DNA from: a virus
Virus record (IMG/VR): IMGVR_UViG_3300045959_000123
Span: 1 to 37,419 of that record
DNA length: 37,419 nt
Reading direction: 5' to 3' (one strand)
Position numbers and translations under genes: made by a program. The notes under the pieces are model-generated. The model made no database searches. It saw only the letters and a list, made by a program, of their open reading frames with translations, and was not told the origin of the DNA. Positions 15,501-37,419 of the stretch are shown piece after piece (within the stretch, counting starts at the first letter, position 1; the number at the start of each line of letters is the position of its first letter).

Positions 15501-17383
15501 CATACTTTCCGGTAACCGCCCCATATAATATTTTTACAGATACAGATGGCGAGCCGCTTGAAGACGGTTACATCTATATAGGTGAGGCAAATCAAAATCC
15601 GATTACAAATCCGATTACCGTTACCTGGGATGTCGCCGGCCTTTATCCGGCCGCACAACCGATTAGAACAATTGGCGGTTACCCGGATCGTAACGGCAGC
15701 CCGTCTAATATCTATGTCAATGCAGGGGCCTTTCAGGACTATTCAATTTTAGTAAAAGAAAAAAGTTTAAGGCGAGTATATTACAGCCGAAGTGTACGGT
15801 TTGATTTAATAGCCAATGCTAATAGCATCGACAAAATAGATGATCTTAGAAATATCGTCGGTTATAATCAACCGATTTATGTTCGCGGGCATACTACTTT
15901 AAGTGATGGCGGCCATGGCAATTTCGAATGGTTTGAAGGTGCTGCGCCGGGAACATATGTTGACGATAACGGTTGCACCATTGTTCCTACCGGTGGAGAC
16001 GGCAGCGGGGCGTGGATACGGCAATATAATGGGCCTGTTCGTGTGAAATTTTTTGGAGCGGTCGGTGATGAAATAATAGATGACTATAATGCAATTCAAT
16101 CGGCATTAGACAAAGTGAGTGCTGGCCAGGTATTAATTTTAGATCCCGGTAAATATCGAATTTCAGCCGAACTTGTTCTAGGTGACCAATGCGGAATTGT
16201 AGGTGCGTCGGGATATGACAACAGCACCATCGTCGCAGATAGCGGTGTAAACTGTATAAGAATTACTCCAACCACAGGATCTTTTACCAAACATCAAAGT
16301 ATTCGTGGTGTTACGTTTCGAAGCTCAGGAACAGGAAGCACGGGTATAATAGGATCAACATTATATACATATACTTTTGTTCTCGAAGACTGCCATTTTG
16401 ATGCATCTTTAGAAACCGGAGCAAGTGCTAATTTTATTGAATTAAGATCAACGAATAATTTTTGGGGTTACTATGGTGGCCTTATAAATATGGTAAATGG
16501 TCTTGAATGCAACGGAATTGCCACGACATCTGAAGCAAATCATAATATTATCACCGGAGACGTTTTTTCCAATTTAACTGGTGATGCAATAGTCGTAACC
16601 GAGGGATGGGGATTGCAATTGATAGGCGCGACAGTTGATAATATCGATGGTTATGCAATCAGCGCAACCGGAGGTTTTACAATATCAATTGTCGGCGGTT
16701 GGTTTGAACGATGTGGCAACGGAACGACCAAAACAGGTATATTTGAGCTTGTTTCAGGGACTTCTGGAATTTTTGTCTTTAATATGAACGGCGGCATCAT
16801 ACAAGTTAACACGACTCAAAATAATAAAATTTTCGAAGATGCCGGCAGCAGAGTTATAAATTTAACATCAGTCTCATTTGCCGGGCTTGCTACCGGATCA
16901 TTTTCAATTGGAAACAATCCCGCCCGAGTTGTATTAAATGATACATGCTATTATCCCGGCGGATTTAGCGATATCGATTATAATAAAATAATTCCTGATT
17001 TAGGATCAAGCTATCGATCATTCAATGAAATTGATGACGATACTGGGTCAACGGATTATTACACCAAGATTTTAAAGCACGATAATGCTACATTTAGTGG
17101 ATCTATACTTGGTTTACATGCTAAAAAAGCTGCGTCGGGAACATATAATTTTCTGAGAGCCAGGGCAGACATAGACGGATCTCCAATAACAATGCATACT
17201 CTTGCCGGTAACGGGACCGCTTATCATGGCAGTAGTGTAACAATTGCTGATGGAACATGGAATGGCGGCCATTTAATCTTAGGAACATATCATTTGTGGG
17301 TAGATGCTACCGGGGATTTACGGATAAATAATGGAGCACCAGGCGGCGATTTTAGTGGTGTAGTTGTCGGAACTCAAACATAG
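15497..17383 (+). CDS. Tailspike with P22-type head-binding domain and beta-helix
   Basis: A 628-residue protein (P22 gp9 is 667). Residues 1-110 match the P22 tailspike head-binding domain pattern: a GEPLEDGYIYIGEANQNP-type start, a YPAAQPIRTIGGYPDRNG segment, and an IYVNAGAFQDYSILVKEK segment. Residues about 175-480 read as a right-handed parallel beta-helix with a pectate-lyase-like opening (VKFFGAVGDEIIDDYNAIQ). Such spikes bind and usually cleave surface polysaccharide. A good ribosome-binding site (AAGGAG) precedes the ATG. It is the last gene of the virion operon, and its 3' end overlaps the convergent MBL gene by 10 bases. The catalytic residues cannot be assigned. Confidence 0.92.
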   Translation: MTYFPVTAPYNIFTDTDGEPLEDGYIYIGEANQNPITNPITVTWDVAGLYPAAQPIRTIGGYPDRNGSPSNIYVNAGAFQDYSILVKEKSLRRVYYSRSVRFDLIANANSIDKIDDLRNIVGYNQPIYVRGHTTLSDGGHGNFEWFEGAAPGTYVDDNGCTIVPTGGDGSGAWIRQYNGPVRVKFFGAVGDEIIDDYNAIQSALDKVSAGQVLILDPGKYRISAELVLGDQCGIVGASGYDNSTIVADSGVNCIRITPTTGSFTKHQSIRGVTFRSSGTGSTGIIGSTLYTYTFVLEDCHFDASLETGASANFIELRSTNNFWGYYGGLINMVNGLECNGIATTSEANHNIITGDVFSNLTGDAIVVTEGWGLQLIGATVDNIDGYAISATGGFTISIVGGWFERCGNGTTKTGIFELVSGTSGIFVFNMNGGIIQVNTTQNNKIFEDAGSRVINLTSVSFAGLATGSFSIGNNPARVVLNDTCYYPGGFSDIDYNKIIPDLGSSYRSFNEIDDDTGSTDYYTKILKHDNATFSGSILGLHAKKAASGTYNFLRARADIDGSPITMHTLAGNGTAYHGSSVTIADGTWNGGHLILGTYHLWVDATGDLRINNGAPGGDFSGVVVGTQT

Positions 17384-18072
17384 ACCGATTTTCCGGTAAC
17401 GTTCTCAATCTCTTCCCGAAACAATTTTTCATCCGAGTTTTCATCGGAGAGATGAATCAAATAGATTTTTTCAGTTTTTGACAAATCCATGCAGTTAAAA
17501 AATTTAACTACGTTCGACAACTCAAAATGGCTTTCCCGAATCCGGCGCTTTGTTCCATTATCAAGCGCCGTGTTTTTTTGTAGCAGGGCTTCGGAGTAGT
17601 TGCACTCTACAATCCAGTGGGTCACGCCTGCAAATTCGTAATCAATGCGGGCCGTGTCCGTGGCGAACAGAATTTTTTTGCCGGAAGGGCTGCCGATCAG
17701 AAAGCCGAGCGGTTCGGCGGCGTCGTGCCGGACGGCAAATGGTAAAATTTTCCAGGCTTCGAATTCAAACGATTTTTCAGCCTTAGCGATCAATGCGTTA
17801 ATACTGCTCTGCCTGTCGAGATTGAGTGCATTCAATGTGCCTTGCGATGCAAAACAAACAACGCCCATTTTAAGCAAATCTTTGATAGAGCATGAATGGT
17901 CCTTATGCTCGTGGGTAAGCAACGCGAAATCAAGCCGCGACAGGCTGAAATTCGAACGTTTCCGCAATTCCTTGATGCTGATACCGGGATCTATTAAAAT
18001 GCTCTTGTCGCCGTCCTCAATGATATAGGCATTGCCTTTTGAGCCGGTGGCAAGGATTTTAATTTGGAACAT
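17374..18072 (-). CDS. MBL-fold metallo-hydrolase
   Basis: A 232-residue protein with a complete metallo-beta-lactamase metal site: T-H-E-H-K-D-H at residues 53-59, a later His at 116, Asp at 139 (ATDTA), and His residues at 182 and 207. The fold resembles YycJ/WalJ- and PhnP-like hydrolases, acting on nucleic acids or cyclic nucleotides. Phage MBL proteins include Apyc1, which degrades cyclic nucleotide signals of Pycsar defence. The ATG at 18072 is chosen because the MBL core starts there; a longer frame to 18237 adds a basic, poorly conserved-looking stretch over another plausible gene. It is the last gene of the leftward operon with the AcrVA2 homologue. Specificity is not visible. Confidence 0.85.
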   Translation of the reverse strand: MFQIKILATGSKGNAYIIEDGDKSILIDPGISIKELRKRSNFSLSRLDFALLTHEHKDHSCSIKDLLKMGVVCFASQGTLNALNLDRQSSINALIAKAEKSFEFEAWKILPFAVRHDAAEPLGFLIGSPSGKKILFATDTARIDYEFAGVTHWIVECNYSEALLQKNTALDNGTKRRIRESHFELSNVVKFFNCMDLSKTEKIYLIHLSDENSDEKLFREEIENVTGKSVYV

Positions 18073-18244
18073 CGTCGCACCATATCGCCTTTTTATCTCC
18101 GGCAAATTGATTTTGTACGAATTTATTTTGCGGCAAAAAAAACGGCCATCGATCAGCCGGGAACCTACCAGCTTGTTTATCGCGAATGATCTCCATTGAT
18201 ACCGCAACAATCGGCCTGCCATCGGCCCACGCCTCACACATCAT
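18059..18244 (-). CDS. Small protein, unknown function
   Basis: A 61-residue frame starting with two ATG codons (18244 and 18241). It begins MMCEAWADGRPIVAVSMEII and ends overlapping the MBL start by 14 bases. The start overlaps the stop of the 17-codon micro-ORF upstream (TGATG), consistent with coupling. It is preferred over the overlapping N-terminal extension of the MBL frame, which has an unlikely basic composition. No motif or membrane segment was recognised. Confidence 0.5.
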   Translation of the reverse strand: MMCEAWADGRPIVAVSMEIIRDKQAGRFPADRWPFFLPQNKFVQNQFAGDKKAIWCDDVPN

Positions 18245-18294
18245 CGTTTCAGGATTACCCACAGCATTAGGTCCATTTCTATTTCTTCTTGCAT
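18241..18294 (-). CDS. Micro-ORF (17 aa) coupled to the next gene
   Basis: A 17-codon frame, MQEEIEMDLMLWVILKR, with a strong ribosome-binding site: AAAGGAACCAAC runs directly into its ATG at 18294. Its TGA overlaps the ATG of the downstream gene. Almost the same leader (AAAGGAACCAA) precedes the AcrVA2-like gene. It could be a short peptide or a device to load ribosomes onto the 61-residue gene. Confidence 0.4.
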   Translation of the reverse strand: MQEEIEMDLMLWVILKR

Positions 18295-18310
18295 GTTGGT
18301 TCCTTTCACA

Positions 18311-19315
18311 TCATTCTCCACAAACATAAATGGGAGACAGCCATCTATATTCGAAAACCCTATCTCCATTCCTGGGCCCAAGCCAGTACCCATGCCAGTG
18401 AGCGCGGCGTAAATGGGGCGCCTTTTTCTTTCCTTCCGCTATTGCTTTTTCGTAACTGTTTCGTAAAACATCCCCTGTTTTAACACCAACATTCCAGTAT
18501 TTTACGCCTTTCGGCTCGAAGAGACGATTGCCTTTTTTAGTTTTTTTATACTCGGCCCTTTTGGGACTGATCCCAGGTATCCGATCATTATCAATATCAG
18601 GCTCTTTTTGGCAGAGATATAGAAGTAAACTGATATAAGGCTGTATGAAATTTGTATAAAAATCTTGCCGCGAATAATGTAAAAGCCATTCTTTATCTTT
18701 TTTTTTAAAGTCTGTTTCTTTCAATGCACTGTCGACAATATATTCTAAGCTCTGTTTAATTGTTATGTTTTTATCCAATTTGAGAACCAATGGCATACAA
18801 ATAAAATCATTATCATTTACTATTAGCAGCCTTAAATAAAATTCATTTTCTATCGTTGAATAATCGAGATGTGCAAAAAATCCATGAATAATACGTTTGT
18901 CTCCCCAATCGAACCCTTTGGTATCAAAAAATATGCAATATTCCGGCAACCTCAACAACACATCCATCGGGATATTGCCGTTTATTTTCGTCGATATAAT
19001 ACTCTTAAATATATCATTATCAAGACGATAAACGCCCTTGGAGAACATCCAGTTTACAGCCGCAGTTAATTTACTGGATTCTAAAGAAAGTAAAAATCTA
19101 ACGTCGCTTTTTTTAATATTGGAATATTTTTCTTTATTGGCGAAAATGACGAACTGTTCAAATAATTCTATCGGAAAAAGTACCTGTTTAGGGAAGAGTT
19201 TGCGGCAGTCTTTCATTACTTTTTCAGATAGTTTGAGCCAATTTTTTATCGGGTATTCTGATTTTATTTTTAGCAAAAACCTTTCTGGAAGTGTTAATTC
19301 CATTTTGGTTCCCAT
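18311..19315 (-). CDS. AcrVA2-family anti-CRISPR homologue (candidate Cas12a inhibitor)
   Basis: A 334-residue protein, near the 322 residues of Moraxella bovoculi AcrVA2. Three blocks align with AcrVA2 as I recall it: GVYRLDNDI (94-102) with GIYQLDEEI; LRLPEYCIFFD (121-131) with LNLPDWCVYVD; and the C-terminal RRAHWHGYW (303-311) with RRGHWHGYW, the clearest signature. HGFFAHLDY (144-152) also fits. AcrVA2 lowers Cas12a levels by acting on Cas12a mRNA during translation. The ribosome-binding site AAAGGA precedes the ATG at 19315. The gene is notably A/T-rich compared with the late genes, which suggests separate acquisition. It lies between the initiator and the MBL gene. Family membership is confident; Cas12a inhibition is inferred. 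Confidence 0.85.
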   Translation of the reverse strand: MGTKMELTLPERFLLKIKSEYPIKNWLKLSEKVMKDCRKLFPKQVLFPIELFEQFVIFANKEKYSNIKKSDVRFLLSLESSKLTAAVNWMFSKGVYRLDNDIFKSIISTKINGNIPMDVLLRLPEYCIFFDTKGFDWGDKRIIHGFFAHLDYSTIENEFYLRLLIVNDNDFICMPLVLKLDKNITIKQSLEYIVDSALKETDFKKKDKEWLLHYSRQDFYTNFIQPYISLLLYLCQKEPDIDNDRIPGISPKRAEYKKTKKGNRLFEPKGVKYWNVGVKTGDVLRNSYEKAIAEGKKKAPHLRRAHWHGYWLGPRNGDRVFEYRWLSPIYVCGE

Positions 19316-19343
19316 TTGGTTCCTTTCCGGTGTCGGTGCGGTA

Positions 19344-20069
19344 CTAATTTAGATAAGCCGCGTAATAAGCCGTCATCCCCTTAGCAACCCAGGCGGCAGG
19401 ATCATCTTTATCAGCGCATTTTTCAAAAAGCCAATTGAAATATGGCCTATCCCCCTGTTTGTCCCAAAGGCATTTATTTATAAACGGCCTTGAAAGCTGG
19501 CCCTTAAGGATATCCGGCATCGTCAGCATTATTTCGTCAAGATAGGGGTGAAAATTATTAAAAGAGTCAGGCGCAGCCCCTGATTTTTCTTTTATAATTT
19601 TCTTTTCTTTTCTTTTAATAGGTAGAGGCTCGGTTGGTAACTGGGAGTTACCAACTGGTAACTGGGAGTTACCAATTTCAGATTTTGGTAACTGGGAGTT
19701 ACCAAAAATTTTCTGTTCGATAACCGAAATTTTACGTTTTTTGCCACGCCCGGTAATTTGGAGATACCCTTTATTTTTAAGCCGCATGATTATATTTTTA
19801 GCATAGTCTTTAGATTCTCCTATACGTTTTCCTATCTGCTCATTATTCGGCCATATGTTACCATTTTCGCCCAAATGAATTAGGATCGAAACCAAAAGGT
19901 TTTTTTCAGCATGGGGTAAAATTTTTCTGTCGATTGCTTGAATTGATTTTATTGTTTTGAATATGTCCACCGGAAAAAAATCCTTTCCAGGGTCATAACG
20001 AGGATTGACAATTTCAGCGGGGATGATATGTTTAGCAGCAGCACTAGAGGTCATTATGACCCTTTCCAT
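19344..20069 (-). CDS. Lambda-O-like replication initiator with winged helix
   Basis: A protein of 241 residues from the ATG at 20069, which has GAGGG 7 bases upstream. An in-frame ATG at 20150 would add 27 residues but has a badly spaced ribosome-binding site. A winged-helix domain runs about residues 48-118 in this numbering (KILPHAEKNLLVSILIHLGENG, then SKDYAKNIIMRLKNKGYL). The linker has three GNSQLP repeats encoded by three palindromic iterons, then a Lys-rich stretch encoded by an A-rich tract. The C-terminal domain (RPFINKCLWDKQGDRPYFNW) may contact a helicase or loader. This is the lambda O plan: DNA-binding domain, origin inside the gene, partner-binding C-terminus. The specific call is inferred from architecture, not from sequence identity. 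Confidence 0.72.
   Translation of the reverse strand: MERVIMTSSAAAKHIIPAEIVNPRYDPGKDFFPVDIFKTIKSIQAIDRKILPHAEKNLLVSILIHLGENGNIWPNNEQIGKRIGESKDYAKNIIMRLKNKGYLQITGRGKKRKISVIEQKIFGNSQLPKSEIGNSQLPVGNSQLPTEPLPIKRKEKKIIKEKSGAAPDSFNNFHPYLDEIMLTMPDILKGQLSRPFINKCLWDKQGDRPYFNWLFEKCADKDDPAAWVAKGMTAYYAAYLN
19581..19704. other. Candidate origin of replication (iterons plus A/T-rich tract)
   Basis: The three iterons abut a 40-base A/T tract (19581-19620) that is almost pure pyrimidine on the plus strand, ending in TTTTCTTTTCTTTTCTTTTA. Iterons followed by an asymmetric A/T-rich unwinding element inside the initiator gene is the layout of the lambda origin. Origin function is inferred. Confidence 0.6.
19635..19704 (-). 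repeat. Three 19-bp palindromic iterons inside the initiator gene
   Basis: The sequence TGGTAACTGGGAGTTACCA occurs exactly at 19635-19653, 19656-19674 and 19686-19704. Each copy is a perfect inverted repeat (TGGTAACT / AGTTACCA around GGG). Start-to-start spacings are 21 and 30 bases, about two and three helical turns. They encode the GNSQLP repeats of the overlapping protein. Confidence 0.95.
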
Positions 20070-20214
20070 TTTAAAACCCTCGGCGAGTCCGTCTAAAGAA
20101 ACGCCGGGGGTTTTGCACTTTAGTTGAGTAAGAACGATACCCGCCACCATACCACCTGACCAAAAAAAAATCCAAAAAAATCCTATTAATGATACAACCT
20201 GCCGAAAAAATGAA

Positions 20215-20511: not shown

Positions 20512-20570
20512 AATCCCCTACTCGTAAATACGCTATTGACCACATAACTAACTGATGTCACAATAATTTG

Positions 20571-21077
20571 ATGGAATCGCTACCGATCATTTACAAACTG
20601 GCCGCCCGTTACAATATACGCTATCCGCAATACGATTACTGGCATTTTGTAAGCGCCGGATGGATCGGCTACAGCAACGCTGTGAGGCTGTATGACGGCG
20701 ATAAAAGCAGCCTTTCGAACTGGGTCCACTTAAAAGTCGGGCTTGCCATGCGGGATGCCGCCCGCAACGAAATTGAAAATTACCGTGACGGCAATCACAG
20801 AATTTTTGTAAAAAAATACCAGTTGAACGAAAATTTTACTGATCTAAAAATCAGAGTTGACGATATCTATCAAAAAAATTGTATCGCCGTATCGATCGAT
20901 AAGCTGACCCCGCGAGAGCGCGAAATCATCCTCCACTATTACTACCTGGGCCGCACACACAAACAGATCGGCGCCCGATACGGCGTTAACGAGCACCGCA
21001 TCAGCCAGTTAAAAAAAGAGGCTTTAAGACGGCTCAAGGGGCATTTAATCCGAAAAAAAATTACAGGTGGACAATGA
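20571..21077 (+). CDS. Sigma-70-family RNA polymerase sigma factor
   Basis: A 168-residue two-domain sigma factor. The N-terminal part (residues about 1-70) matches region 2: helices with YDYWHFVSAGWIGYSNAV and SSLSNWVHLKVGLAMRDAAR. The C-terminal part (about 110-160) matches region 4: LTPREREIILHYYYLGRTHK followed by a helix-turn-helix, QIGARYGVNEHRISQLKKEA. It would bind host core RNA polymerase and direct it to phage promoters. The ATG at 20571 is preferred over the TTG at 20568; neither has a strong ribosome-binding site. It overlaps the next gene by 4 bases (ATGA). The promoter sequence it reads could not be identified here. Confidence 0.85.
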   Translation: MESLPIIYKLAARYNIRYPQYDYWHFVSAGWIGYSNAVRLYDGDKSSLSNWVHLKVGLAMRDAARNEIENYRDGNHRIFVKKYQLNENFTDLKIRVDDIYQKNCIAVSIDKLTPREREIILHYYYLGRTHKQIGARYGVNEHRISQLKKEALRRLKGHLIRKKITGGQ

Positions 21078-25366: not shown

Positions 25367-27238
25367 ATGGAACTGAAATTGCTGAAGTTGGAGCTCCAAA
25401 ATTTCAAGGGAATCAAAAAATTCTGTCTCAAAACCGGCGGTGAAAATATCATCGTTCAAGGAAAAAACGGCATCGGAAAAACAACACTGGCCGACGCCTG
25501 GTTCTGGCTGCTCACAGGTTCGAACCTGGACGGACAGGCGAAATACAATATCATTGAGCTGGACGATGGGTCGGTCCCGTTAAATCATCAAAACGCCGAA
25601 GTCCAGGCCCAGATCCAAGTCGGATCGAAAAACGTCATGCTGCAGAAAACCTACCGGCAGATCTGGCGTAAAAAGAGGGGCCAGGCCGAGGCCGAGTTTT
25701 CAGGCCATACCACAGATCATAGATGGGATGGCATTGACGTTTCGGCGAAAGAATACCAACGTCGATTGGATGAGCTATGCCCTGCTGCAATTATCCGATC
25801 CCTTACGGATGTACATCATTTCTGCGGTCGCCTCCGTCCCGACGACCGGCGCCATGAGTTGATCTCGCTTGCCGGTGAAATCAATATGCTATCTATCTGT
25901 GAGCAGTACGACGACCTGCACGACCTGCCGGATCTGATCGGCGACTATACCATTGCCGACTTCGAAAAGAGGCTAAAATCACAGCGCAAAGAATCGCAGA
26001 AGTCACTAAAAGAAATCCCTATCGAAATAAATTCGAAGAGGGAAGAGATAGCCGACATAGACGGCCTGGACGAAACAGAGATACGCGGCAACATTGCAGC
26101 CCTTGACGAACAGATATCAGGCATCAAAAACGAATTGGTCGCCCTGGGCAATGGGTCGAGAATTATGGAACTAAAACGGCAACGGGCGGAAATTGAGGGG
26201 GGCTTGATCGATCTTGCCAACCGTGCCCTAAAAAAAATAGCGGGTATCGAAAAAGAGCGTGATGCATATTTTGCACAAATTGCGTCATGTGAGTCTGATG
26301 CTGACCTATTCCGGCGGGAGATCAGCCGCATTGATGCAGAAATTGCAACAAACAGATCCGATGATCAAAAACTTGTGGCGGCCTGGCGCGAAATATCCGC
26401 CGGGGGCAAAAAATGCCTGACCTGCGGGCAAAAGTTGCCGCCTGAGAGCGTCGAAAGTCAGCTTAATGAGATCGTTGATAAAGGCAAACGGCTTGCGGAG
26501 GAATTAGCCGGATTAAACGCCATGCGCCTGGAAAAACTCGAAAAAATAAAATTATCGGAGCAAGCGGCAGCCGAGGCAAGGCTAAAAGTCGACACCCTGG
26601 CCGACGTTGCAAAAAATGCAACGTCGAATGATGTCGATATAATCGCTCTTAAAAAGCTAAAAGCCGAGGTTGAAAGCGCAATTGAAAATAAGGGGTTGGA
26701 TATAGAGCCGGAAAAAAAGCGGCTTGAACAAGACCTGGGGAGCTTTACGCGAGAACTCGAAGCAGAACAAGGCAAGCTGTCTTCGATTCGATCCGCCGAG
26801 CGCACACGGGAACGTATCGCAGACAAAGAGGCCATGCTCAAGGCTGCCGCGATTGAATATGAGGAGTGTGAACGCCAGCTTTACATGCTCGAACTATATG
26901 GCCGAAAACGCTCTGAATATATTGAGGAAACCGTGTCTCAGAAATTTGAGATCACGGCCTGGAAGCTGTTTGAGGAGCAGATTAACGCAGGATCGCGGGA
27001 GATATGCGAGGCCGTTTACCAGGGGGTGCCTTACAGTACGGATTTGAACACCGGCGCCCGCATCCAGGTCGGCCTGGACGTGATCAAAACGCTATCTAAA
27101 CATCACGGCGTTAAGATGCCTATTTTTATTGATAATGCGGAATCCGTAACAAACTGGATGATTGATTTGGATAATCAATTGATTCGGCTGGTGGCGGCGG
27201 CGAATATTGATAAATTGGAGGTAGTTAATGCAGATTAA
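25367..27238 (+). CDS. SbcC/Rad50/RecN-like AAA ATPase with zinc-hook Cys pair
   Basis: A 623-residue SMC-like ATPase. Walker A is GKNGIGKTT at residues 32-40, after an N-terminal QNFKGIKKFCLK strand typical of RecF/RecN/SbcC proteins. Coiled coils flank a central CLTC at 350-353, the Rad50-type zinc hook pair. The C-terminal lobe has a Walker-B-like IFIDNAES at 586-593. A canonical ABC signature is not obvious. It would tether or process DNA ends, probably with RecT or a nuclease. The gene contains an exact copy of the intergenic palindrome at 26604. Spacing to the next gene is an overlap of 11 bases. The role is inferred from the family and the recT neighbourhood. Confidence 0.82.
   Translation: MELKLLKLELQNFKGIKKFCLKTGGENIIVQGKNGIGKTTLADAWFWLLTGSNLDGQAKYNIIELDDGSVPLNHQNAEVQAQIQVGSKNVMLQKTYRQIWRKKRGQAEAEFSGHTTDHRWDGIDVSAKEYQRRLDELCPAAIIRSLTDVHHFCGRLRPDDRRHELISLAGEINMLSICEQYDDLHDLPDLIGDYTIADFEKRLKSQRKESQKSLKEIPIEINSKREEIADIDGLDETEIRGNIAALDEQISGIKNELVALGNGSRIMELKRQRAEIEGGLIDLANRALKKIAGIEKERDAYFAQIASCESDADLFRREISRIDAEIATNRSDDQKLVAAWREISAGGKKCLTCGQKLPPESVESQLNEIVDKGKRLAEELAGLNAMRLEKLEKIKLSEQAAAEARLKVDTLADVAKNATSNDVDIIALKKLKAEVESAIENKGLDIEPEKKRLEQDLGSFTRELEAEQGKLSSIRSAERTRERIADKEAMLKAAAIEYEECERQLYMLELYGRKRSEYIEETVSQKFEITAWKLFEEQINAGSREICEAVYQGVPYSTDLNTGARIQVGLDVIKTLSKHHGVKMPIFIDNAESVTNWMIDLDNQLIRLVAAANIDKLEVVNAD
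26604..26624 (+). repeat. Intragenic copy of the CGTTGCA palindrome
   Basis: CGTTGCAAAAAATGCAACG, with flanking A and T, is the exact reverse complement of the intergenic palindrome at 27948-27968, extending to 23 matching bases with the adjacent CG. It lies in the SbcC-like coding sequence (encoding part of DVAKNATSND). Confidence 0.9.
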
Positions 27239-31174: not shown

Positions 31175-31514
31175 GCTGAAAGATATAGTATATTTAATAA
31201 CTTACATATTATCATTCATGGGACTGCTAATCACCACGACAAGCCGATTAAAGTCATTGGAGAAGAAGTTTTATCACCAGGGGAAAGTGATATACGGAGA
31301 CCGTGGTAAATTAAACGTAATAGATGCGGATACTTGCAAAAAACATAGGGATGATATATTTGTAGCAATACGAAGAAATGAGCGGATAAATGAGATGATG
31401 ATTTCAAAACTGGATTATCTTAACGAAAATATACTTATCATCAAAGCCCATATGGGGATACATACGCCAAACGGGATCAGGCTGGATGTCAAAAAAGATA
31501 AAGATAACCTGTAA
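31164..31514 (+). CDS. Membrane-anchored coiled-coil protein, holin- or spanin-like candidate
   Basis: A 116-residue protein from ATG 31164 with one N-terminal membrane helix (IVYLITYILSFMGLLITTTS, residues about 8-27) and a charged helical tail. A segment KLNVIDADTCKKHRDDI resembles short phage membrane proteins near lysis genes as I remember them. Topology N-out or N-in is not decided. An in-frame ATG at 31143 adds 7 residues. It overlaps the Cys-rich gene and the methyltransferase gene. It is the best membrane protein candidate for a lysis role in this genome, but confidence is low. Confidence 0.55.
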   Translation: MTLELKDIVYLITYILSFMGLLITTTSRLKSLEKKFYHQGKVIYGDRGKLNVIDADTCKKHRDDIFVAIRRNERINEMMISKLDYLNENILIIKAHMGIHTPNGIRLDVKKDKDNL

Positions 31515-32832
31515 AACCGAAAAATACCTCCACATCGATGAGCTGGAATCTTTCCAGGGCGAGCTTAAAAGCATCGATGATGAAGCAATGGAAAAGCTAA
31601 AGGGGAGTATCCTCAAGTACGGGTTTTCTTTTCCAATTTTCGTTTGGAGATACAGTATTTTAGACGGCCATCAGCGGCTTGAGGCGGTAAAAAGGCTGAT
31701 CGATGACGGGTATAAAATGGATGACAGGCGGCTGCCGGTGGTCGAGATCCAGGCCAAGAACGAAACCGAGGCGGCGGAAAAACTTTTGCTCATAAACTCA
31801 CGGTACGCGACGATTGACCAGAGCGGATTTGATTCTTTTGTCGCGGATTATTCGATTGATTTGGGTGAGATTGAGGGGTTGCTGGAGATACCGGAGATTG
31901 ATTTTAGTCTGCCTGAAGACGAATTTGAAGGTAATACCGATCCTGATGATATTCCTGAAGTTGAAGAAACTCCGGTCAGCAAGATGGGGGATATTTGGAT
32001 TTTGGGTGATCATCGGCTTATGTGCGGGGATAGTACGGATGAAGATGATATTGAACGGCTGATGAATGGTGAAAAGGTAAATCTGATATTTACGAGCCCA
32101 CCATACGATAATCAAAGAACATATGAATTGGCCGAAGAAATTAATTGGAACGATTTAATGTCAAAGGCTTTCGGGCATGATATTTATTCGGATAATTGTC
32201 AAATATTAGTTAATCTCGGATTGATTCATAAAGATGGCGAAGTATATCGGTATTGGGATTGGTTTATTGATTTCATGCGAGAAAGCGGCTGGAGGTTTTT
32301 TGGTTGGTATGTTTGGGACAAACTTAATGCGATATGTGGTGATTTTAAAGGACGTTTAAATTTAAGGCATGAATGGATTTTTCATTTCAATAAAAAAGGA
32401 ATTAAGTTAAATAAAACAATACCATGCAAGCGTTTCGGCGATAAAGCTAATGGGACCGGAGTTAGGTTAAAAAACGGAAAACTAAAAGGGGCTTTAACAG
32501 GAGATGGTAAACCTATTAATGAATTTAAAATTATTGAATCTGTTATAACTCAAGATCCTGAAAAGGCGCGTTTAGGAATTAATCATCCTGCAATGTTTCC
32601 AATTAAATTGCCGAAAAAAATTTTAGAAACATTTCCTTGTAAAAACATCTATGAGCCATTTTCAGGATCAGGCACCACAATAATCGCCGCAGAACAAACC
32701 GGCCGCCGCTGTTTTGCCATGGAATTGTCTCCCAACTATGTAGACGTAGCAGTAAAAAGATGGCAGGAATTCACCGGCAAAGATGCCGTGATGGAATCAA
32801 ACGGAAAGACATTTAACGATATAAGTGCCTGA
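31486..32832 (+). CDS. ParB-like domain fused to N4/N6 DNA methyltransferase
   Basis: A 448-residue fusion. Residues 1-140 are a ParB/Srx N-terminal domain with DGHQR at 60-64. Residues 170-448 are an amino-methyltransferase of beta-class order: motif IV TSPPY at 203-207 comes before motif I FSGSGTT at 392-398. It would transfer a methyl group from S-adenosylmethionine to adenine N6 or cytosine N4, probably protecting phage DNA. The start overlaps the preceding gene by 29 bases. A second ParB copy follows at 32887. Target site cannot be read from the sequence. Codon use is more A/T-rich than in the late genes. Confidence 0.88.
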   Translation: MSKKIKITCKTEKYLHIDELESFQGELKSIDDEAMEKLKGSILKYGFSFPIFVWRYSILDGHQRLEAVKRLIDDGYKMDDRRLPVVEIQAKNETEAAEKLLLINSRYATIDQSGFDSFVADYSIDLGEIEGLLEIPEIDFSLPEDEFEGNTDPDDIPEVEETPVSKMGDIWILGDHRLMCGDSTDEDDIERLMNGEKVNLIFTSPPYDNQRTYELAEEINWNDLMSKAFGHDIYSDNCQILVNLGLIHKDGEVYRYWDWFIDFMRESGWRFFGWYVWDKLNAICGDFKGRLNLRHEWIFHFNKKGIKLNKTIPCKRFGDKANGTGVRLKNGKLKGALTGDGKPINEFKIIESVITQDPEKARLGINHPAMFPIKLPKKILETFPCKNIYEPFSGSGTTIIAAEQTGRRCFAMELSPNYVDVAVKRWQEFTGKDAVMESNGKTFNDISA

Positions 32833-32886
32833 ATCGAGGTTTGGCAAAAAAGTTATTATCATGAAGTAGGTTGTTAAGGGAAAGCC

Positions 32887-33426
32887 TTGATTAAAATAAC
32901 CTGTAAAACAGAAAAATACCTCCACATCGATGAGCTTGAAATATTTCAGGGCGAGCTGAAAAGCATCGATGACGAGAGTATGGAAAAGCTCAAACAGAGT
33001 ATTCTTAAGTACGGCTTTTCATTCCCGATATTCGTTTGGCGATACAATATTATTGACGGTCATCAGCGGCTTGAGGCGGTTAAAAGGCTGATAGATGATG
33101 GACATGAAATGGACGATCGAAGCTTGCCGGTGGTAGAGATCCAAGCCAAGGATGAAACCGAGGCGGTGGAAAAGCTTTTGCTCATAAACTCACGGTATGC
33201 GACGATTGAGCAGGATGGGTTTGATTCTTTTGTTGCGGATTATTCGATTGATTTAGGTGAGATTGATGGGCTGCTGGAGATACCGGAGATTGATTTATCT
33301 ATCGGTGATAATAATTCAGAAACCTTTGAAGATGTAAGTCCTGATGATATAAACCCGGATGAATATGATCTAAATACAATATGTCCAAGGTGTGGGTTTG
33401 AATTCAATAAGCTGGAACCTGAGTGA
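32887..33426 (+). CDS. Stand-alone ParB-like domain protein (duplicate)
   Basis: A 179-residue protein starting at TTG with AAGGGAAA upstream. Residues 1-130 are nearly the same as the ParB domain of the previous gene, including the DGHQR box. After that it diverges and ends in a zinc-ribbon-like CPRCGFEFN. It has no methyltransferase part. It lies directly before, and is probably coupled to, the cytosine methyltransferase. The ParB domain may act as the specificity or clamp partner for that enzyme (inference). Confidence 0.82.
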   Translation: MIKITCKTEKYLHIDELEIFQGELKSIDDESMEKLKQSILKYGFSFPIFVWRYNIIDGHQRLEAVKRLIDDGHEMDDRSLPVVEIQAKDETEAVEKLLLINSRYATIEQDGFDSFVADYSIDLGEIDGLLEIPEIDLSIGDNNSETFEDVSPDDINPDEYDLNTICPRCGFEFNKLEPE

Positions 33427-33427
33427 T

Positions 33428-34450
33428 TTGAAATCAATCAAAAAGAACGGCTTAAAAGTGATGTCCACTTTTGCCTGCGGTGGTGGTTCTTCAATGGGTT
33501 ATAATCTTGCTGGCTATGATGTTATAGCGGCAAATGATATAGATCCTGAAATGGCATGGCATTATAAAAATAATCTGAATCCGAAACATTATTTTTTATG
33601 CCCGATCAAAGACTTGATGAAAAAGGATTTGCCACAAGAAATATTTGGGATTGATGTTTTGGATGGCTCCCCACCTTGCAGCACTTTTTCAATGGCCGGT
33701 AAGCGTGAAAAAAACTGGGGCAAAAAGAAAAAATTTAGAGAAGGACAAGCCGAACAGGTTTTATCGGATCTATTTTTTGATTTTATTAGCTTTGCCGATT
33801 ATATAAAGCCGAAGGTTATTGTTGCTGAAAATGTAAAAGGAATTATCCTTGGCAATTCAAAGGGATATGTAAGAGAAATAAAAAAGCGGTTTAAAGAAAT
33901 TGGATATAATGTCCAAATATTTCTTTTAAATTCAAAATATTGTGGAGTCCCACAAAGTAGAGAAAGAGTGTTTTTCTGCTGTCTTAGAAATGATTTTAAG
34001 TTTAGAAAGCTTAAATTGAAATTGTCGGGAAATATTTTAACAGCAGGTTACGCTTGTAGTGATATACAGGAATTGACTGATGAAGAAATAAAGACATCTA
34101 TCTTAGAACCAAAAGCCGCAGAATTATACCCAATGGTTAAAAAGGGCACATCTTTTCAATTTGCCCATAAGAAAAAATATGGATCAGGTAATTATTTCGG
34201 ATATCAAAGATTGTCTGAATATAAACCAGCACCAACATTGTTAACTAAAAGCAAAAGTTTTCACCATTGGGATAAATGCAGATTACTAACATTTAGAGAA
34301 TTCAAAAGGATTGGATCATTTCCGGATGACTACCAAGCGAAATCAATCAATATTGGCAAGTATATGGTAGGAATGTCGGTTCCTCCAAGGATGATAGAAA
34401 AGATTGCTATAGCGATTAAAGAGCAGTGGCTTTATAATGTAAGTACCTGA
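33428..34450 (+). CDS. C5 cytosine DNA methyltransferase
   Basis: A 340-residue DNA-(cytosine-5) methyltransferase. Motif I is STFACGGGSSMGY near the start, motif IV with the catalytic Cys is GSPPCSTFS (about residues 83-91), motif VI is AENVKG, and motif VIII is QSRERVFF. It would methylate C5 of cytosine in a target that the short recognition domain reads. A GTG at 33392 gives a longer frame, but the TTG at 33428, directly after the ParB stop, fits the usual N-terminus; ATG 33461 is another option. It is more A/T-rich than the virion genes. Likely role: protection from host restriction. Confidence 0.87.
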   Translation: MKSIKKNGLKVMSTFACGGGSSMGYNLAGYDVIAANDIDPEMAWHYKNNLNPKHYFLCPIKDLMKKDLPQEIFGIDVLDGSPPCSTFSMAGKREKNWGKKKKFREGQAEQVLSDLFFDFISFADYIKPKVIVAENVKGIILGNSKGYVREIKKRFKEIGYNVQIFLLNSKYCGVPQSRERVFFCCLRNDFKFRKLKLKLSGNILTAGYACSDIQELTDEEIKTSILEPKAAELYPMVKKGTSFQFAHKKKYGSGNYFGYQRLSEYKPAPTLLTKSKSFHHWDKCRLLTFREFKRIGSFPDDYQAKSINIGKYMVGMSVPPRMIEKIAIAIKEQWLYNVST

Positions 34451-36465: not shown

Positions 36466-37419
36466 ATGCCATCAAAAGACCTCGTTAAAATCCACCGAAC
36501 AGCCCTTAAAAATTTCGATTCGATCCAGGATGCCCTATGGGAAGAACGGGAGCAATGCCGGCTTGACCGGCGATTTTACTCCATAGCAGGCGCCCAATGG
36601 GAAAGCGACCTGGGGCAGCAGTTCAAAAACCGCCCGAAGTTCGAAGTTAACAAAGTCCACCTCTCCGTGATCCGGATCATCAACGAATACCGTAATAACC
36701 GCATTACGGTTGATTTTGTGGCAAAAGACGGCAAGGCCGACAAGCTTGCCGATACCTGTGATGGCCGATACCGCGCAGACGAGCAAGACTCCTGTGCGCA
36801 GGAAGCCTACGACAACGCTTTCGAAGAAGCGGTAGGCGGCGGTTTCGGGGCCTGGAAACTAAAGCCCTGCTACGAAGATGACGAAGACGACGAAAACGAG
36901 TACCAGCGCATAGAGTTTGAGCCGATCTATGATGCCGATTCATCCGTATTTTTCGACCTGAACAGCAAAAAGCAGGACAAATCAGACGCCCGTTATTGCT
37001 ATGTGATCCGCTCGATTCCCGTCGACACCTATATCGACGAATACGACGACGACCCCGCCGGGTGGCCCAAAGACATCGACAAATCTGAGTTTGATTGGAG
37101 CACTCCCGATGTCGTTTACATCGCCGAATATTACCTCATCGAAGAGGTACCGAAAACCATCGAAGTGTGGGAAGACCTTTCCGGCAACGAAACCAAATAC
37201 AGCCAGGAGGATTTTGAAGAGGACGAAAATCTGTTCGAAATGCTCACCGCCACCGGCAACCGCAAAGTCCGCGATAAAAAAACAGAACAAAAACGAGTCC
37301 ACAAATACCTGCTAAACGGCGACCGGGTGATGGAGGATTGCGGATACCTACCGGGGTCGTGCCTGCCCGTGATCCCGGTCTACGGCAAGCGGTGGTATGT
37401 CGATAATATCGAGCGCTGT
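36466..37419 (+). CDS. Portal protein, P22 gp1-like (N-terminal part, cut by window end)
   Basis: The frame opens at the ATG at 36466 and stays open for 318 codons to the window end. It continues in frame at base 2 after circularisation, giving about 682 residues against roughly 725 for P22 gp1. The portal forms the dodecameric ring at one capsid vertex for DNA entry and exit. The start region reads MPSKDLVKIHRTALKNF and is followed by a segment (RPKFEVNKVHLSVIRIINEY) typical of P22-like portals, then an acidic stretch near residues 140-150. Position after TerL and before the scaffold matches P22. The Shine-Dalgarno before 36466 is poor and a perfect A/T-rich inverted repeat lies just upstream. 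The fold is inferred from family resemblance and gene order. Confidence 0.9.
   Translation, partial: MPSKDLVKIHRTALKNFDSIQDALWEEREQCRLDRRFYSIAGAQWESDLGQQFKNRPKFEVNKVHLSVIRIINEYRNNRITVDFVAKDGKADKLADTCDGRYRADEQDSCAQEAYDNAFEEAVGGGFGAWKLKPCYEDDEDDENEYQRIEFEPIYDADSSVFFDLNSKKQDKSDARYCYVIRSIPVDTYIDEYDDDPAGWPKDIDKSEFDWSTPDVVYIAEYYLIEEVPKTIEVWEDLSGNETKYSQEDFEEDENLFEMLTATGNRKVRDKKTEQKRVHKYLLNGDRVMEDCGYLPGSCLPVIPVYGKRWYVDNIERC
37293..37419. repeat. Terminal direct repeat, copy 2 (assembly overlap)
   Basis: This is the second copy of the 127-base overlap, identical to bases 1-127. It lies inside the portal gene. Joining the two copies restores one portal reading frame. Confidence 0.93.

Follow-up and report, generated by a model that had tools for sequence, protein, structure and literature searches.

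Two characterised proteins are the closest described systems to the phage gene considered here. The anti-CRISPR protein AcrVA2 reads the N-terminus (LSKT) of nascent Cas12a and brings about the loss of cas12a mRNA during translation (PMC13131331); because tagged Cas9 and Cas12f mRNAs can also be made AcrVA2 targets (meeting report PMC12908700), a target can be assigned with a short tag. FinQ, the fertility-inhibition protein of IncI1 plasmids, cuts off F-plasmid tra transcription at multiple sites in a Rho-independent manner, according to PMC8744291, which cites Ham and Skurray (1989). Specific mRNAs are lowered by both characterised proteins (PMC13131331 for AcrVA2; PMC8744291 for FinQ). The link between the two seems to have gone unremarked in the open-access literature that we searched, in which no paper carried both names (preprints and subscription papers lay outside the search).

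The DNA studied, hereafter the window, is the 37.4-kb virus record IMGVR_UViG_3300045959_000123 (positions 1-37,419). The portal gene is divided between the start of the record (35-1222) and its end (36466-37419), which makes it probable that the genome is whole and circularly permuted. The coat, portal and head-closure proteins are of P22 type, as an initial annotation of the window had proposed in calling the phage P22-like, and the closest sequenced phages are two uncultured Manatee Spring contigs (coat about 68% and 58%) and Pseudomonas phage PfAn1 (58%). The gene of interest stands 28 bp 3' of an O-like replication initiator on the same strand, which bears out the earlier description of it as lying beside a phage initiator, and a gene for an MBL-fold hydrolase follows in the same direction (Table 1). 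The phrog_392 match to this hydrolase begins at residue 55, and its real start is probably at about 18075. The open reading frame of interest is a real gene with a product of 334 amino acids, and its start is supported because AAAGGAACCAA immediately precedes the ATG. The start cassette AAAGGAACCAA(C)ATG occurs twice, at 19316-19330 and 18289-18310, in front of this gene and of the tiny ORF that follows it (MQEEIEMDLMLWVILKR). The AT-richness of the region (38% GC, against about 50-56% across most of the structural region) suggests that the gene is an acquired accessory gene.

Several other features of the window were recorded. Three 21-nt near-palindromic repeats (TTGGTAACTGGGAGTTACCAA; 19634-19705) lie within the initiator gene and resemble lambda-type origin iterons, and a gene for a sigma-70 region 4 protein (20568-21077; PF04545, E=6e-16) runs against the direction of the initiator gene, on the other strand. 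An SbcC-like ATPase of 623 aa (25367-27238; phrog_77) is also present, with no SbcD partner noticed nearby. Positions 31486-34450 hold a ParB-like/DNA methyltransferase fusion (phrog_498), a second ParB-like ORF and a separate DNA methyltransferase (phrog_116), possibly an anti-restriction set; the phage genome encodes two DNA methyltransferase genes.

Table 1. Coordinates of the genes around the AcrVA2/FinQ-family gene and of the segments of its product.
Feature	Position	Strand	Basis
O-like/DnaD-like replication initiator	19344..20150	-	phrog_186/270/345, E about 1e-7; PF13730 HTH_36
AcrVA2/FinQ-family gene, 334 aa (PHROG 6160)	18311..19315	-	sequence and fold matches
MBL-fold metal-dependent hydrolase	17374..18237	-	phrog_392, E=1.5e-73
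Conserved core, residues 76-135 (W89, Y96, P116, P124)	18911..19090	-	mean top-residue fraction 0.58
Variable middle segment, residues 136-215	18671..18910	-	lowest conservation, 0.41
Signature H301-x-R303-R304-A-H306-W307-H308-G-Y-W311-x-G313	18377..18415	-	conserved 96-100%, W311 79%

The phage protein belongs, with virtual certainty and over its full length, to the AcrVA2/FinQ family, PHROG 6160, which is listed as 'unknown function'. It matches phrog_6160 at E=7.5e-57 over residues 22-333, nearly the entire protein, and AcrVA2 is its sole significant PDB match, by sequence and by fold. A phmmer search of the PDB returned AcrVA2 (7CI1/7CI2) at E=8.3e-17 over residues 76-331, with the runner-up at E=1.9; after removal of residues 291-334, the remaining residues 1-290 again matched AcrVA2 (E=4e-7, residues 76-285), and the match extends beyond the C-terminal motif. 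A blind profile, built from 18 other viral relatives with the window protein, FinQ and AcrVA2 all left out, scored the phage protein at 240 bits, or 162 bits without its C-terminus, and none of 300 shuffled sequences was among its matches. An AlphaFold2 model built from 19 viral sequences (pLDDT 84.9, pTM 0.84) has a predicted fold like that of AcrVA2: Foldseek found 7CI2 at E=1.9e-18 (first unrelated chain 0.24), and structural alignment with 7CI2 gave Z 24.3 over 292 residues (model 6-334; rmsd 3.4 Å; next entry Z 2.3). The identification as an AcrVA2 homologue in the initial annotation, which had pointed to several shared blocks, is therefore upheld by phmmer with and without the C-terminal motif and by the predicted fold, and the blocks are all present: GVYRLD (94-99), LLRLPEYC (120-127), HGFFAHLDY (144-152) and RRAHWHGYW (303-311). 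The C-terminal HxRRxHWHxxWxG signature is represented by H301, R303, R304, H306, W307, H308, W311 and G313. Searches of Pfam, NCBIfam and PADLOC with the phage protein gave no reportable match; PADLOC PDC-S02 was set aside as weak, as it reached E=0.009 in one family member only. The fold search with the model listed no known nuclease that would account for the C-terminal module.

Judged by their sequences, AcrVA2 and FinQ belong to one family. With FinQ as the query, AcrVA2 is matched at E=3.9e-17; the blind viral profile scores FinQ at 173 bits and AcrVA2 at 129 bits (102 and 69 bits with the C-termini removed); and phrog_6160 is matched by each of the 13 proteins in a mixed alignment, among them FinQ and a Moraxella-phage AcrVA2 homologue. 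The phage protein is homologous to FinQ, both matching the blind viral profile and phrog_6160; it is encoded in a P22-like phage record and not on a conjugative plasmid, and it is classed as a homologue and not as FinQ proper. A search for FinQ among viral contigs gave nothing beyond a 46-residue C-terminal match. Members of the family are carried by phages, plasmids and integrative elements: tblastn located them in 97 phage records (Moraxella, Erwinia jumbo phages, Leptospira, Pasteurella, Lactobacillus and Shewanella) and in 765 plasmid records, hundreds of which belong to the FinQ-bearing Escherichia and Salmonella group, and a genome scan found relatives in Pseudomonadota, Thermodesulfobacteriota, Bacillota, Planctomycetota, Acidobacteriota, Nitrospirota, Spirochaetota, Bacteroidota, Synergistota, Myxococcota and others. 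FinQ itself is present in 370 of 5,426 complete E. coli genomes, chiefly on plasmids, and 198 of them have 80% or more of the gene. Two plasmid records annotate FinQ with an internal start (259-260 aa); in one of them (L023:2728-3819), reading on from the upstream ATG gives 363 aa, close to the published 361 aa (PMC8004404). No conserved operon partner was found for the family: what recurs nearby is ordinary mobile-element content (genes of thermonuclease-like, integrase and ParB/ParA type), and 4 of 110 members have a related HTH gene in the vicinity.

In our trees, AcrVA2 forms a fully supported group with a Moraxella catarrhalis phage homologue (Mcat4) and Shewanella phage Y11, and in a 43-row tree the phage protein groups with an Aeromonas caviae plasmid protein and a Citrobacter integrative-element homologue (support 98/90). 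The AU test rejects a position of the phage protein inside the AcrVA2 and Mcat4 pair (p=9.7e-10). The test does not reject a clade of the phage protein with AcrVA2, Mcat4 and Shewanella Y11 (p=0.55; the free tree places the protein elsewhere), nor a sister relationship to FinQ (p=0.15), the branches being too long to choose between them. In Shewanella phage Y11 (L110), about 2.4 kb separate the AcrVA2 homologue from annotated antirestriction genes.

The initial annotation had taken the homologue to imply either pressure from Cas12a or a wider role for the family. The first of these is not supported; the second has the stronger backing, given the example of FinQ, which targets F transfer genes; Cas12a is a possible target of the phage protein, one candidate that is not implied by the homology. 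None of 50 genomes with a family member encoded Cas12a (TIGR04330), against a background of 1 in 369 Gammaproteobacteria, in which the same search, as a positive control, gave 1,247 bits. The 50 carriers are the best matches to the profile of the window protein and include several incomplete MAGs; the test covers the family as a whole. Given the low background of Cas12a, its absence from the carriers is no anomaly, but it sets an upper limit of about 6% on the share of carriers that also have Cas12a (95% bound, exact binomial). A Cas1-profile match occurred in 27 of the 50, about half of the matches being weak. Prevalence was dropped as an argument, because frequency alone is uninformative when, among 369 Gammaproteobacteria, the family profile matches 3 (the seed genome included) and Cas12a is found in 1; the three genomes searched from the family of the Cas12a-positive genome gave no match to the protein family, which is uninformative too.

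It is therefore unlikely, in our estimate, that the phage protein is a true anti-Cas12a protein that removes cas12a mRNA, as AcrVA2 does, in a host with type V-A CRISPR. Such a function would fit the fold and signature shared with AcrVA2, the AU test, which retains the clade with AcrVA2, Mcat4 and Shewanella Y11, and the partial activity of AcrVA2.1 on Cas12a2 as well (PMC9811890). However, the carriers lack Cas12a even though the search detects it strongly in the positive genome, the phage protein is rejected from the AcrVA2 and Mcat4 pair (p=1e-9, rounded), and FinQ is proof of other targets within the family.

Conservation along the protein was scored over about 108 relatives, AcrVA2 and FinQ included (Table 1), and identity between AcrVA2 and FinQ is 35% in residues 76-135, 10% in residues 136-215 and 53% at the C-terminus. 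From a conserved C-terminus and a middle that varies between the differently targeted AcrVA2 and FinQ, we infer a shared effector and a variable recognition part, in which residues 136-215 are the putative target-recognition segment and the C-terminal signature is a putative effector or ribosome/RNA-contact module. The co-crystallised Cas12a peptide (618-634) counts against the recognition-segment model, as it is not the LSKT site that triggers silencing.

The position of the gene in the strand of replication genes suggests that it is expressed early and serves in counter-defence or against competitors. The phage would make the protein early, and the protein would meet the product of its target while that product is being translated, as a nascent peptide; the mRNA in question would then be lost, with lower expression of one or a few particular genes of a host defence or a rival element. 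Choice of the target would fall to the variable middle segment, and contact with the ribosome/RNA or with a decay factor to the near-invariant C-terminal HxRRxHWHxxWxG module. Our analysis makes it fairly probable that the phage protein silences mRNA in some way, and we lean, with slightly less confidence, towards the full explanation of an early accessory protein that guides the loss of one or a few target mRNAs through their nascent peptides. At roughly 18-25% identity, the mechanism of the phage protein could differ from that of AcrVA2 or FinQ. As FinQ is described as terminating transcription and not as triggering decay, it is only by extension from AcrVA2 that we infer a mechanism shared by the two.

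The phage protein may instead act as described for FinQ in 1989, stopping RNA polymerase at several sites in an operon without translational mRNA decay, which we regard as rather improbable. FinQ, reported in PMC8744291 to terminate F tra transcription without Rho and at multiple sites, is homologous to both AcrVA2 and the phage protein, but the homologue AcrVA2 requires translation and reads the N-terminal amino-acid sequence of its target (PMC13131331), and co-translational mRNA decay could likewise give many truncated tra transcripts, the tra operon being translated. We think it very doubtful that the target is one of the phage's own genes (for example, in the replication or lysis-lysogeny region), as the adjoining, co-directional initiator might suggest, since relatives occur in unrelated gene settings with no common partner, also on plasmids and integrative elements, and the low GC content of the region suggests an acquired accessory gene.

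Loss of target mRNAs guided by nascent peptides is thus the reading that we prefer for the phage protein, and it can be extended to the family. The chances are about even that AcrVA2 and FinQ represent one large mobile family of nascent-peptide-triggered, sequence-specific mRNA silencers that phages and plasmids turn against many different genes, that cas12a is not the gene silenced by the phage protein, and that the 'multiple-site termination' ascribed to FinQ in 1989 was co-translational mRNA loss. If FinQ and AcrVA2 do work alike, a decades-old, unexplained fertility-inhibition system and a recent anti-CRISPR would share one mechanism, and hundreds of PHROG 6160 genes of 'unknown function' in phages, plasmids and integrative elements would be candidates for mRNA silencing whose targets could be found. 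Specialists would be surprised to see a classical fertility-inhibition protein placed with an anti-CRISPR in a single family whose shared outcome is loss of mRNA; the anti-CRISPR label is not warranted for every AcrVA2 homologue, and FinQ and F in E. coli offer a ready system for testing a shared mechanism.

Compared with known systems, the phage protein resembles AcrVA2 of the Moraxella bovoculi prophage (7CI1/7CI2) in its full-length fold, conserved core, C-terminal RRxHWHGYWxG and phage-encoded setting, but shares only 18% identity with it over the structural alignment and falls outside the AcrVA2 and Mcat4 pair. It shares the HxRRxHWH signature with FinQ, along with conserved W, Y, P, G and C positions and a common PHROG and profile, whereas identity is about 21% and FinQ resides on conjugative plasmids next to trbA, with the F tra genes as its known target. 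ORF43 of Shewanella phage vB_SbaS_Y11 ('AcrVA2') is likewise phage-encoded and was likewise named through fold similarity, but it joins AcrVA2 at full support, which the phage protein does not clearly do. The nearest supported relatives are the hypothetical protein of Aeromonas caviae plasmid pSS332-218k (QSO25205.1), about 34% identical, and the Citrobacter homologue (L034), which, unlike the phage gene, are carried by a plasmid and an apparent integrative element, respectively.
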